The notes beneath the pieces are model-generated. The model saw only the letters and a list, made by a program, of their open reading frames with translations, did not search any database and was not told the origin of the DNA. From NCBI GenBank assembly GCA_006218045.1, contig VBWB01000010.1, positions 48,813-112,812 of the forward strand: a DNA stretch of 64,000 bases, read 5' to 3'. This DNA comes from Stygiobacter sp. (GTDB lineage: Bacteria; Pseudomonadota; Alphaproteobacteria; Rhodospirillales; Magnetospirillaceae). The position numbers were made by a program, and so were the translations under genes. The number at the start of each line of letters is the position of its first letter. Positions within the stretch are counted from its first letter, which is position 1. Positions 53,279-58,312 of the stretch are shown here, piece by piece.

Positions 53279-53430
53279 TTAGTGATTTTTATCAATTTGC
53301 CCCCCATGGGCTGTGGTGACGTTTTTGTGACCTAAGACAAAAGTTTGTGTTCGTTGCAACAAGAGGTTGCCTTTCTCAGCGAAAGTGTTGAGAATGCGTA
53401 GGTGGGGCATAGCCACAGGAAATTGCACAG

Positions 53431-53916
53431 ATGATCTCTACTGCCAACAATGACGTGAAAAGTCCGGGTCGCCGCGTCTCCAGCCGCGGTCGCACTCCTT
53501 CCGGGAAGCCCAACCCTATTGATGTCCATGTGGGCGCCCGGGTTCGCTTGCGCCGTACCCTTATGGGTATGAGCCAGGAAAAGCTGGGCGAGGCCTTGGG
53601 TCTGACCTTCCAGCAGGTGCAGAAGTACGAACGCGGCGCCAACCGCGTCGGCGCCTCGCGCCTGTTCGATCTGTCGCGTGTGCTTGACGTGCCGGTCAGC
53701 TTTTTCTTCGACGACATGTCGGAAGAAGTCGAAGCGCTGTCGCCGCGGCTGATTTCCGGCTTGGCCGAGGAGCCCGCTGCGTTCGAGACGGACCCCATGA
53801 CCAAGCGCGAGACCTTGGAGTTGGTGCGGGCCTATTACCGCATTACCGACCCACATGTGCGCAAGCGTGTGCTGGATCTGGCCAAGGCCTTGGGGGCGGT
53901 CGCCGATATCGGCTGA
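53431..53916 (+). CDS. XRE-family transcriptional regulator
   Basis: HVGARVRLRRTLMGMSQEKLGEALGLTFQQVQKYERGANRVGASRLFDLSRVLDVPVSFFFDDM. Confidence 0.92.
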   Translation: MISTANNDVKSPGRRVSSRGRTPSGKPNPIDVHVGARVRLRRTLMGMSQEKLGEALGLTFQQVQKYERGANRVGASRLFDLSRVLDVPVSFFFDDMSEEVEALSPRLISGLAEEPAAFETDPMTKRETLELVRAYYRITDPHVRKRVLDLAKALGAVADIG

Positions 53917-53965: not shown

Positions 53966-54409
53966 CTATTCCGCTAACGGGTTTTCCGACAGCTTTCGCG
54001 CCAGTTGGTGGACCATCTGGCGTTTTTTTTCGTCCGAAATGGCAAGATAGGCGCGGACAAGTTCCAGCGCCTCACGCATGTCGTCGCCAACCGGGCCGCA
54101 ATCGTCGAATGGCGTGCCGGGAAAGCCCGCGTCCAGTTCGCGCGGCATGGCGTCGAAGAAGTAGCCGAAGGGCACGTCCAGAACCACGGTCAGGCGGTGC
54201 AGCAATTGTGGGCCGACACGTTCGCGCCCGCTTTCCATGGCCGACAGGGTTTCCGCCGGCACAGCCATTGCTCGGGCCAGATCCTCGAGGGGTAGCCCAA
54301 TGGCGTTACGTCTGGCGCGGATGCGCTTGCCCAGATGGCTATCCAGCGGGGTCGGGCGAATTTCTGCGGGAATGGGGTCCGTCACGGCACACGCAAGATT
54401 GATTGACAT
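53966..54409 (-). CDS. XRE-family transcriptional regulator (second paralogue)
   Basis: HLGKRIRARRNAIGLPLEDLARAMAVPAETLSAMESGRERVGPQLLHRLTVVLDVPFGYFFDAM; divergent from luxR. Confidence 0.9.
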   Translation of the reverse strand: MSINLACAVTDPIPAEIRPTPLDSHLGKRIRARRNAIGLPLEDLARAMAVPAETLSAMESGRERVGPQLLHRLTVVLDVPFGYFFDAMPRELDAGFPGTPFDDCGPVGDDMREALELVRAYLAISDEKKRQMVHQLARKLSENPLAE

Positions 54410-54468
54410 TGCCGCTCTGTATACCATGCGCGTTCAAGCTGTAAAACCAAGCCTTGGTGCGAGGTAAC

Positions 54469-55197
54469 ATGGTCGGTGATAATTTTCGCCTGGGCGACTT
54501 CATTGAACGGACGCTGCGGGCCGATACCGCACCGGTCTTGATGAGCGAGTTGAAATCCGCTCTGGTCCATTGGGGCTTTCCCCACATGGCCTGCGGCGCC
54601 TTCGGCGAGCCCGAGCGCCCGCTGGATGACATGTCGGTTCCTGCCGTGGTGGTGGATTACCCGGAAGAATGGCAGAAATATTACTTCGAGAAAAATTACG
54701 TCACCATTGACCCGGTGGTCACCCGGGCTTGCCAGGCCTATGTTCCTTATCGCTGGGACCAGTTGCGCGATTTGACCAATCCGCAAAAGCGGATGTTCAG
54801 GGAAGCGACCGAGGTGGGGCTGTTGCACGGTATCACCGTGCCGGTTCACGGCCCCAATGGCAGCGTTTTTGTCGCCAGTGTCGCCAGTCCCCATGCCGAT
54901 ATCGACCAGTTGCGCAGCCTGTCGGTGGCCAATATCCTGGTCACTCAAGTCTATTCGGTGTTGGTGGGAATGAGGCATCCGGGGGCGCCAAGCGCCCCGG
55001 TGTCGCTGACGGCGCGGGAACGCGAGTGCCTGATCTGGAGTGCCCGGGGCAAATCGTCGTGGGATATCGGGGTGATTTTGAACATCTCGGACAACACGGT
55101 GAATTTTCATCTCAAGAACGCCATGGGCAAATTAAAGGCTTCGACCCGCGTCTTAGCCATTGTGAAAGCTATTCGCATGGGTTTGATCGTTCCGTAA
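54469..55197 (+). CDS. LuxR-family quorum-sensing regulator
   Basis: AHL-binding-like N-domain (VVDYPEEWQKYYFEKNYVTIDPVVTRACQAYVPYRWDQL) and HTH (SLTARERECLIWSARGKSSWDIGVILNISDNTVNFHLKNAMGKLKA); next gene is luxI. Confidence 0.93.
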   Translation: MVGDNFRLGDFIERTLRADTAPVLMSELKSALVHWGFPHMACGAFGEPERPLDDMSVPAVVVDYPEEWQKYYFEKNYVTIDPVVTRACQAYVPYRWDQLRDLTNPQKRMFREATEVGLLHGITVPVHGPNGSVFVASVASPHADIDQLRSLSVANILVTQVYSVLVGMRHPGAPSAPVSLTARERECLIWSARGKSSWDIGVILNISDNTVNFHLKNAMGKLKASTRVLAIVKAIRMGLIVP

Positions 55198-55243
55198 ACC
55201 CCTCAACCTTGGCAGGATGTAATAATACTAAATTCGTCTTCTT

Positions 55244-55269
55244 CTAGCGCGTAGACATTCCAGCGCTAG
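55244..55269. promoter_or_regulatory. Perfect inverted repeat immediately 5' of luxI
   Basis: CTAGCGC-N12-GCGCTAG; right arm overlaps the start of the AGGAGGAG ribosome-binding region. Confidence 0.65.
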
Positions 55270-55278
55270 GAGGAGTTG

Positions 55279-55902
55279 ATGATTGAAGTTGTAAATTGGG
55301 GCAACTCACACGCATTCGGCGACTCACTTGCCGCTCATCATCGGTTGCGTCATAAATGTTTCGTCGAACGTAATGGTTGGTCAGTTCCCAGCCATGACGG
55401 CATGGAATACGATCAGTTCGACACGCCGGCCGCCACCTATCTGATCCATCGCCAGGGAAATGGTCCGGTTCGCGGCGTCGCCCGCCTGATCCCGACCACC
55501 CGTCCCTACATGCTCAAGGAATTGTGGCCCGATCTGCTGGGCGGCGACGTTCCGGCCAGTACCCAGGTTTGGGAAGCCACCCGCTTCGGCATCGATGACG
55601 ACCTGGAGCCGGCGGCCAAGCGCCGGGTGGCGGCGGAAATCGTGCTGGGCTGTCTGGAGTTCGGCATGTCCATGGGCATCGACCGCTATCTGGTGCTGAT
55701 GCCGCACCTGATCATCCGCCGCACCATCGGCGGGGCCGGTTGCAATTTCCGTTTCCTCGGTGAAACCCGCGCCCTGGCCGATTATCCGGTGGCGGCGGCG
55801 GAAATCGAGGTCAACGCCCAGGCCTTGGCTTCGGCCCGGGCCAAGATCGGCTTTCATGGTTCGCTGCTGCGCCGGCACGACAAAGCGGCGGTGGCGGCGT
55901 GA
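55279..55902 (+). CDS. Acyl-homoserine-lactone synthase (LuxI family)
   Basis: HRLRHKCFVERNGWSVPSHDGMEYDQFDTPAATYLIHR, VRGVARLIPTTRPYMLKELWPDL, WEATRFGIDD. Confidence 0.95.
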   Translation: MIEVVNWGNSHAFGDSLAAHHRLRHKCFVERNGWSVPSHDGMEYDQFDTPAATYLIHRQGNGPVRGVARLIPTTRPYMLKELWPDLLGGDVPASTQVWEATRFGIDDDLEPAAKRRVAAEIVLGCLEFGMSMGIDRYLVLMPHLIIRRTIGGAGCNFRFLGETRALADYPVAAAEIEVNAQALASARAKIGFHGSLLRRHDKAAVAA

Positions 55903-56102
55903 TGGGCGCGCTGCCTTTCCCCCGCCATTGCGCCGGCGGCGTCCTGCCGCTGGCCGGCGATGCCGCCATCATTGGCAAGGCGCTGGAAGCCCTGGCCAGT
56001 CATGCCCGTGACGCCGGTCTGGCCGCGTTGGCCCAGGCCATCCTGGAACTGGGGCTGGAAGCCGCCGAGATCGCGCGGCATACCGGCAAGCTCAGTCACT
56101 GA
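55902..56102 (+). CDS. Small Ala/Leu-rich protein translationally coupled to luxI
   Basis: ATG overlaps the luxI stop; MGALPFPRHCAGGVLPLAGDAAIIGKALEALASHARDAGLAALAQAILELGLEAAEIARHTGKLSH. Confidence 0.65.
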   Translation: MGALPFPRHCAGGVLPLAGDAAIIGKALEALASHARDAGLAALAQAILELGLEAAEIARHTGKLSH

Positions 56103-56110
56103 ACACGAAA

Positions 56111-56137
56111 CCCCCGCCCGGCAGGACCGGGCGGGGG
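56111..56137. terminator. Strong GC stem-loop between convergent small genes
   Basis: CCCCCGCCCGG CAGGA CCGGGCGGGGG; no U-tract. Confidence 0.65.
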
Positions 56138-56161
56138 CTCGATGACGAGATCATTTATTAT

Positions 56162-56320
56162 TCAGTGCACGGTTTCGGTGGCGTCCTCGGCGGCCAAGCC
56201 GGCGACCTCGATCAACTCGGCCAGTTCGCGCAAATCCGATTCCCGCGCTTCACGGGCCAGATAATCCAGGCAATGCTTGATCGCCTTGGCGTTTTCGCTG
56301 CGGTTCTTGGCTTCGTTCAT
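56162..56320 (-). CDS. Small helical protein, similar to the luxI-coupled ORF
   Basis: MNEAKNRSENAKAIKHCLDYLAREARESDLRELAELIEVAGLAAEDATETVH with GGAGG RBS. Confidence 0.65.
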   Translation of the reverse strand: MNEAKNRSENAKAIKHCLDYLAREARESDLRELAELIEVAGLAAEDATETVH

Positions 56321-56458
56321 CTTGGATTCCTCCGTGGCATGGCAACGCTGAAGCCTAGGCATTCACCCGCACTTTTGGTACCTACCAGCTTTGGTGGGGA
56401 AAAACCCTACAAGGGCAGTTGTTGAGATGGATTCTAGATACGGCTATCGTGCCGGTCA

Positions 56459-56602: not shown

Positions 56603-58312
56603 ATGAACCGGCAGGCCAATATCGCCATCTGTCCGTTTTCCTTTCCGGCTAGCCTGCCGTTGGGACCGTCCATCATCAAGGCATTCGCCGAGGAACATTC
56701 CGATTTCAAGGTCTCCTGCATCGACCTGAATGCCGAATGGTACAACACTTTCGTCGACGCGGCCCTGGCCGGCAAAAGTTTTGTCCAGTTCTCGCCCGAG
56801 GCCAAGGCGGATTTCGCCAAGGCGGCGAAAATGTTCCGCGACGGTGGCGACGTATTCTGGGACGAGGCGGAATACCAACGGCTGTCGCGCTTTTTTGAAA
56901 GCACCATCCGCAAGGTGGAAAACGTCTTCCTTGATGGGTTCGAGCGCGCCTGTGCCCACGGCGAATACGTGCCGCCGATCAAGGCCTATGCCGAGCACGC
57001 CGCCCGCAAGCTGATCGCCAATGACCCGTCGGTGGTCGGCTTTTCCCTGATGTTCCGCGAACAATATATGCCGTCTGTGCTGATCGCCTATTACGTCAAG
57101 GCGTTGAAACCGGACGTGACGATCGTCTTCGGCGGCGGCTATACCAGCGCCTGCCATCCATCCATCCTGTTCGCCAATCCGTTCATCGACTTCGTCGTCT
57201 TCAATGAAGGCGAGGGCGGTTTCCATGCCTTGCTGATGGCCTTGGACGAGGGACGGACCAGCTTTGACGGCATCGCCAACCTGATCTGGCGTAACCCGGA
57301 GGCGGAAGATGGCTGGGTGAAAAACGCCAAATCGCCGTCGGTGGATTTCAAGACCCAGCCTTACCCGGATTTCTCCGATTACCGGTTGGGCGCCTATTTC
57401 CAGCCCGAGCCGGTGTTCCCGATCATGAGTTCCAAGGGCTGCGCCTGGGACAAATGCACGTTCTGCACCCACCACCGGTCTTATTCTGGCGCGCATCGGG
57501 CCGCCGCCACCGACCGGGTGGTGGGGGAAATCGAGCACATGGTCAATACCTATGGCGTCAAGCGCTTCGCCTTCGTCGACGAGATGATCTCGCCCGGCCG
57601 CTTCCGCCGCATCTCCGAGGATCTGATCGAAAAGAACATCGACATCACCTGGTACGCCCTGGCCAAGCCCGACCTGATCTATACCGAGGAAATCCTGGAG
57701 ATCATGCACAAGGGCGGCTGTCGTTATCTTCTGTGGGGGGTGGAATCGGCCAATCAGCGCATCATCGACCTGATGGACAAGGGCACTACGCCCGATGGCG
57801 TCGCCGAAGTGCTGGCCCGCTCGACCCGCGCCGGCATCAAGAATCACCTGTTCATCATTGTCGGCTTCCCCTCGGAAACCGAGGCGGAATATCTGGAAAC
57901 CATGGAGTTTCTGTACAAGAACCGTGACAACGTTCACCGCATCCTGGCCTGTGGTTTCTCCCTGGATAACGGCTCGATCATCTTCAAGGAGCCGGAACGC
58001 TTCGGCATTTCGCGCATCTGGGATGTGTCCAATATCGCTACCGTCAGCGTCAAATACGACGTCGAGCGCGGGGTAGGGTGCTTCGACACGGAAAAGCACG
58101 CCTTGTTCTGGAAGAACAATTTCTTCGACCATTTCGAGGCATTCAGGGGCGATCTGGGGCTGTTCCGCAATCACGCCCTGCTGCATTATACCTATGCGGA
58201 CCGGATCAAGCCGGTCGGCGGTCGGCGGGTGACCAACCCACGCAAGCTGAAGCCGCCGCCCTATCACGCCGGGCCGGGGGTCAAGTCGGACCGCAAGGTG
58301 CTGACCAAGTAA
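56603..58312 (+). CDS. B12-binding-domain radical SAM protein
   Basis: N-terminal cobalamin-binding-like Rossmann (VVGFSLMFREQYMPSVLIAYYVKALKPDVTIVFGGGYTS), GCAWDKCTFCTHH (CX4CX2C) cluster motif, GGCRYLLWGVESANQRIIDLMDKG. Confidence 0.9.
   Translation: MNRQANIAICPFSFPASLPLGPSIIKAFAEEHSDFKVSCIDLNAEWYNTFVDAALAGKSFVQFSPEAKADFAKAAKMFRDGGDVFWDEAEYQRLSRFFESTIRKVENVFLDGFERACAHGEYVPPIKAYAEHAARKLIANDPSVVGFSLMFREQYMPSVLIAYYVKALKPDVTIVFGGGYTSACHPSILFANPFIDFVVFNEGEGGFHALLMALDEGRTSFDGIANLIWRNPEAEDGWVKNAKSPSVDFKTQPYPDFSDYRLGAYFQPEPVFPIMSSKGCAWDKCTFCTHHRSYSGAHRAAATDRVVGEIEHMVNTYGVKRFAFVDEMISPGRFRRISEDLIEKNIDITWYALAKPDLIYTEEILEIMHKGGCRYLLWGVESANQRIIDLMDKGTTPDGVAEVLARSTRAGIKNHLFIIVGFPSETEAEYLETMEFLYKNRDNVHRILACGFSLDNGSIIFKEPERFGISRIWDVSNIATVSVKYDVERGVGCFDTEKHALFWKNNFFDHFEAFRGDLGLFRNHALLHYTYADRIKPVGGRRVTNPRKLKPPPYHAGPGVKSDRKVLTK

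Follow-up and report, generated by a model that had tools for sequence, protein, structure and literature searches.

The described proteins closest to those reported here are CinS and MmaP, two small proteins whose genes directly follow AHL synthase genes. CinS of R. leguminosarum is co-transcribed with cinI, binds PraR, a regulator of the XRE type, and keeps it from binding DNA, for which an analogy with SinI-SinR has been drawn (PMC4149787), and MmaP of Methylobacterium fujisawaense, a 59-aa protein whose gene directly follows mmaI, bound PraR in a pull-down and controls swarming (PMC10790750). CinS was long regarded as a one-off in R. leguminosarum, to which MmaP was added in 2023, and a Caulobacter study of the same year, in which BLAST was used to look for CinS, found none (PMC10688885).

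The window analysed here, i.e., the whole stretch of 64,000 nucleotides, comes from a Magnetospirillum genome that carries one luxI only, and contains two CinS-like small proteins, ORF1 and ORF2, which, judged from sequence comparison, are probably anti-repressors that bind one or more PraR-like repressors. XRE1, XRE2 (antisense), luxR, luxI, ORF1, ORF2 (antisense) and a radical SAM gene form a block that is syntenic in six Magnetospirillum genomes. The luxR gene (54469-55197, + strand; Autoind_bind 1.2e-27, GerE 6.3e-18) and the AHL synthase gene luxI (55279-55902, + strand; Autoind_synth 1.7e-24) make up the complete pair that an earlier, sequence-only reading of this DNA had recognized, and that reading also described the small genes next to them correctly: the ATG of ORF1 (66 aa; 55902-56102, + strand) shares bases with the luxI TGA (TGATG), ORF2 (52 aa; 56162-56320, - strand) lies on the opposite strand with its own GGAGG upstream, and a GC stem-loop is found between the two at 56111-56137 (fold z = -4.2 and -5.1 on the two strands). 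ORF1 is probably translationally coupled to luxI. The stem-loop is likely to be a two-way terminator, given its place between convergent genes; in all six syntenic genomes its position is occupied by a stem whose sequence has changed, and a stem that is kept in position while its sequence is lineage-specific is what would be expected of a terminator between convergent genes.

By their substitution patterns, ORF1 and ORF2 are real genes under purifying selection, with pairwise dN/dS values against the window copies of 0.09-0.42 for ORF1 and 0.09-0.16 for ORF2, compared with 0.05-0.14 for luxI. ORF2 is 83-94% identical in the five other genomes, and its ribosome-binding sequence is conserved among all six; conservation of the ORFs beside luxI in relatives, on which the sequence-only reading had made its proposal depend, is therefore found. 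That reading had considered the two proteins apparently paralogous, with 12 identities in 32 aligned residues, a count that is correct, and had cautioned that the identity might be compositional. Profile comparisons support the paralogy and not the caution. Pairwise BLASTP of ORF1 against ORF2 gave no match, and hhalign of the two ortholog groups gave E = 2e-7 (prob 93.6), with a score of 25.0 from the ORF1 and ORF2 orthologs alone against a best of 9.1 among 100 column shuffles. In the profile search that had been called for, the ORF1-group profile recovered ORF2 as the sole other match in its own genome (E = 0.0012), and a family profile built without ORF2 matches ORF2 in hhalign at E = 1e-12. 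Because the profile score is far above those of the column shuffles and ORF2 alone is matched genome-wide, the likeness is not compositional, and by these comparisons ORF1 and ORF2 belong to one small-protein family. The view that they are chance ORFs made alike by their Ala/Leu composition could appeal to the empty BLASTP comparison and to the Ala/Leu-rich helices of both proteins, but it is refuted by the purifying selection on both ORFs, the shuffle controls and the positional enrichment of the family after luxI described below, and its probability is negligible.

Both proteins are predicted to fold as helix hairpins, with helices at residues 16-37 and 41-64 after a disordered start in ORF1 (pLDDT 79) and at residues 3-27 and 31-51 in ORF2 (pLDDT 89). 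PDB sequence and fold searches returned generic hairpins only, such as Rop and rubrerythrin, none of them significant; the Pfam matches of the small ORFs (HTH_IclR, DUF1722 and TraD) were weak and all below cut-off, the phage records searched held no ORF2 relative, and an Rfam search gave no match at the locus. The hairpin model resembles Rop with a TM of about 0.85 and an E-value that is not significant. Rop-like hairpins normally dimerise, and two proteins of the same fold encoded at the same locus on opposite strands might do so with each other, in which case ORF2 would form a four-helix bundle with ORF1 and titrate it, and thereby oppose or fine-tune the anti-repressor. We consider such a partnership unlikely, since genes of the ORF1 type occur without ORF2 at 8 other Magnetospirillum loci and the conservation of ORF2 matches that of luxI, in keeping with a separate target for ORF2.

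A profile of ORF2 and its distant relatives has matches in 32 of 385 alphaproteobacterial genomes, and at ten loci a match to the profile of ORF2-relatives or to that of ORF1 lies directly 3' of a luxR-luxI pair. The survey of luxI neighbourhoods for linked small ORFs that the sequence-only reading had proposed was run on Alphaproteobacteria: luxI was collected from 372 genomes, which gave 69 matches in 55 genomes, and 67 neighbourhoods were retrieved. They were searched with a non-circular test profile, for which only family members not adjoining luxI were used and ORF1 and ORF2 were left out. This profile has 15 matches at E < 0.05 and 16 after iteration. Every one of them (15 of 15 and 16 of 16) falls immediately 3' of luxI on the same strand, with none at any other position; this slot is touched by 4.7% of frames. 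Further, more diverged small ORFs occupy the same slot at other loci. Within Magnetospirillum, luxI is found in 13 of 13 genomes, and each of the 15 luxI units has a family ORF right after luxI. ORF1 occupies this strict position, which CinS and MmaP share, whereas ORF2 lies downstream of luxI on the opposite strand and falls outside it. From the A2-profile and single-query searches, weak matches that fall within long frames of no relation to the family (L014-L018 and several of L049-L058) were discarded as chance. At one locus (L177), two different small ORFs of 63 and 65 aa stand in tandem after luxI, with a clear family match for the second only.

No Pfam or NCBIfam model matches ORF1, ORF2 or 20 family members, which agrees with the earlier remark that the pair is unlike TraM and QteE in sequence. 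Many family members (L005, L007, L020, L023, L024, L027 and L028) lack a luxR or luxI neighbour, and that of L007 adjoins a PraR-like gene. A role of ORF1 and ORF2 as quorum-sensing modulators is very likely, and in being small modulators of this kind they resemble TraM, QteE and QslA. Were they LuxR anti-activators, they would act by binding LuxR, so that induction would come later or be weaker, as with those three proteins; the tight linkage to luxR-luxI and the coupling to luxI, a negative-feedback layout, would suit such a function. However, the occurrence of family members away from luxR and luxI, one of them beside a PraR-like gene, speaks against LuxR being the principal target, and the partner of the characterised relatives is an XRE repressor, PraR, rather than LuxR (PMC4149787; PMC10790750), so that we regard anti-activation of LuxR as improbable. 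Of the earlier idea of a small family of modulators, the family and its tie to luxI are upheld by the profiles, and the anti-activator role is not, as the nearest described proteins, CinS and MmaP, bind PraR.

The connection to CinS and MmaP was traced through the R. leguminosarum locus itself. A CinI sequence, used as a probe only, served to find cinR-cinI in that species and gave a 98.6% match on R. leguminosarum plasmid pSK03 (L255). The locus contains a 67-aa ORF, annotated as a hypothetical protein, whose ATG overlaps the cinI stop as that of ORF1 overlaps the luxI stop, and which by its position and length we take to be CinS. ORF1 is thus like CinS in being a small helical protein encoded straight after an AHL synthase gene with overlapping stop and start, and like MmaP in directly following the synthase gene. 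Nevertheless, there is no direct sequence match to CinS, and a direct comparison of the profile of CinS and MmaP-position proteins with that of the family is not significant; the sequence link, to MmaP as well, runs through bridges only. The MmaP-position proteins group with CinS (phmmer 2e-4). CinS together with 16 Methylobacterium MmaP-position proteins matches a bridge group of post-luxI small ORFs from other genomes at E = 0.0012, and for this group against the family the match has E = 4.5e-8, each with 0 of 40 column shuffles and over 43-46 columns of the hairpin. Homology of the ORF1/ORF2 family to CinS and MmaP is graded as probable, because the members of the bridge group were hand-picked by position and appearance. 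As a single-sequence query, CinS recovered itself alone among plasmids and, in 190 genomes, nothing convincing as a homolog, which fits rapid divergence. In Methylobacterium, a different type of small ORF, e.g., FFRTYADTVMPLHEALVRACCAE, follows luxI at L305, L306, L309 and L313 and is unconnected to CinS at the thresholds used.

The known partner of CinS is a PraR-type XRE regulator, and PraR-type genes are present in the genome of the window too; two of them, which the sequence-only reading had left out of account, lie within 1.5 kb upstream of luxR. XRE1 (161 aa; 53431-53916, + strand; HTH_3 1.6e-12) is a PraR-like HTH repressor that is 89-98% identical across the six syntenic genomes. XRE2 (153 aa; 53966-54427, - strand; HTH_31 2.5e-9) is a diverged paralog transcribed divergently from luxR, with 41% identity to XRE1 and 43-87% among its fast-evolving orthologs. 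In total, nine PraR-like XRE genes are found in this genome, one of which is linked to metK and a TrmB-like gene; a nine-gene set in one Magnetospirillum genome resembles the radiation reported for Caulobacter. Orthologs of PraR are reported to be followed directly by metK and tRNA-methyltransferase (TrmB-like) genes (PMC10790750). At the window locus it is XRE1 itself that adjoins luxR, and the metK/tRNA-methyltransferase synteny belongs to its own-genome paralog G000:C6 (L299), to which XRE1 is 81% identical. This makes XRE1 a close paralog of PraR rather than its positional ortholog.

Upstream of XRE1, a candidate PraR-type operator, TTGCAACAAGAGGTTGC (53354-53370), contains TTGCAA, the PraR consensus in R. 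leguminosarum (PMC4149787), within an inverted repeat, GCAAC-N5-GTTGC, that is found in exact form nowhere else in the window. The sequence TGCAACAAGAGGTTGC is invariant in the six Magnetospirillum genomes, and this invariant inverted repeat suggests that XRE1 may be autoregulated through the candidate operator, as PraR is in R. leguminosarum.

A PraR-like XRE gene lies within 5 kb in 14 of the 15 Magnetospirillum luxI units, and outside Magnetospirillum one is found within 3 kb at 5 of 29 luxI loci with the small ORF compared with 2 of 38 without it, an enrichment that is no more than mild. XRE2 and ORF2 occur together at 6 of 6 Magnetospirillum loci and neither is found at the others (8 of 8), a co-occurrence that is a lead rather than a test because the six genomes form one clade. 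In R. leguminosarum, by contrast, there is one cinS, and cinR-cinI (L255) has no adjacent XRE gene, and in Methylobacterium praR is metK-linked, away from the quorum-sensing locus, with the sign of the output reversed, whereas at the window locus two PraR-like and two CinS-like genes flank luxR-luxI. The anti-repressor reading also recalls SinI-SinR of Bacillus subtilis, in which a small helical anti-repressor disarms an XRE-family repressor. This likeness is an analogy: comparison of the family with the C-terminal hairpin of PraR-like proteins by hhalign gave no signal over shuffles, and the idea that the small proteins mimic that hairpin was rejected.

Genes for AHL synthases are normally autoinduced. 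As ORF1 overlaps luxI, LuxR-AHL would be expected to drive the two together, so that transcription of luxI-ORF1 would rise at high density. ORF1 and/or ORF2 would then bind XRE1, perhaps XRE2, or the metK-linked PraR and remove the repressor from DNA, and the XRE-repressed genes would be released as quorum is reached, a course of events reported for the CinS-PraR pair of R. leguminosarum. A candidate lux-box-like site in the luxI promoter, CCCCTCAACCTTGGCAGG (55199-55216), falls in a block, CTCAACCTTGGCAGGATGTAATAATA, that is conserved in the six genomes. A second candidate, a lux-box-like dyad at 56381-56398, lies between ORF2 and the divergent radical SAM gene and has the form GTACCTACCAG..TTGGTGGGG, invariant in six genomes except for two central bases; through it AHL-LuxR would probably drive ORF2 and also the radical SAM gene, a step that is weakly supported, as the lux-box-like pattern was defined post hoc and is no more frequent in the window than chance would give. 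Between the luxI promoter site and luxI, an RNA hairpin (55238-55275, + strand; fold z = -3.3) would bury the luxI Shine-Dalgarno sequence, GGAGG, by pairing it with CUUCUUC upstream. Its pairing is kept in 97% of cells over the six genomes whereas its loop varies, which may point to control of luxI at translation, or to an RNA thermometer; as covariation, one two-sided change only is seen.

The adjacent gene (56603-58312, + strand) encodes a B12-binding radical SAM enzyme (Radical_SAM 9.1e-16, B12-binding 3.3e-11) that is 89-98% identical in the six syntenic genomes and is possibly a quorum-controlled output gene, given the conserved dyad that separates it from ORF2. Its top NCBIfam match, which is below the cut-off of the model, is a C-methyltransferase of RiPP maturation. 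Together with its synteny and its divergent orientation to ORF2, this match could mean that one or both small proteins are RiPP precursors modified by the enzyme. Such a role is very unlikely, as the family lacks a leader/core layout, the predicted fold of each protein is a helix hairpin throughout, and radical SAM genes of the window type are absent from the other Magnetospirillum loci with family members.

Relative to CinS and MmaP, the new features are a complete circuit in linkage, a second copy in antisense orientation and how widely the family is distributed. Among the luxI genes of Alphaproteobacteria, a sizeable fraction (16 of 67 by the strict count, and more with diverged members) appears to be followed by a member of this fast-evolving CinS-like family, which also occurs without luxI and which Pfam and NCBIfam models leave uncovered. 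If the predicted binding is true, AHL quorum sensing in Alphaproteobacteria would have, as a second and general output, the anti-repression of PraR-like regulators. We tentatively suggest, as one possibility among others, that the locus holds two dedicated pairs, ORF1-XRE1 and ORF2-XRE2, in a self-contained switch, and that the family may be a general alphaproteobacterial adaptor that connects AHL, or other inputs away from luxI, to individual PraR-like XREs. The Magnetospirillum locus would allow the repressor, signal synthase, receptor and anti-repressors to be tested together in compact form.

Other arrangements of these genes were also observed. In one Magnetospirillum MAG (L287, G535), two luxR-luxI pairs, three CinS-like ORFs and two PraR-like genes lie within about 5 kb. 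At three loci (L023, L024 and L026, the last a relative of the L034 family), whose hosts may, by inference, belong to the Azospirillaceae, a CinS-like ORF without luxI stands beside a gene that resembles dnaK read antisense. In a sister genus (L011, L012 and L013), an ORF1-like gene follows genes for a GNAT acyltransferase, which is not LuxI, and an RHH_4 protein, and at the first of these loci (also retrieved as L248) a PraR-like gene with 78% identity to XRE1 is found about 2 kb from the ORF1-like gene. These GNAT-linked loci may represent the same output module under another signal.
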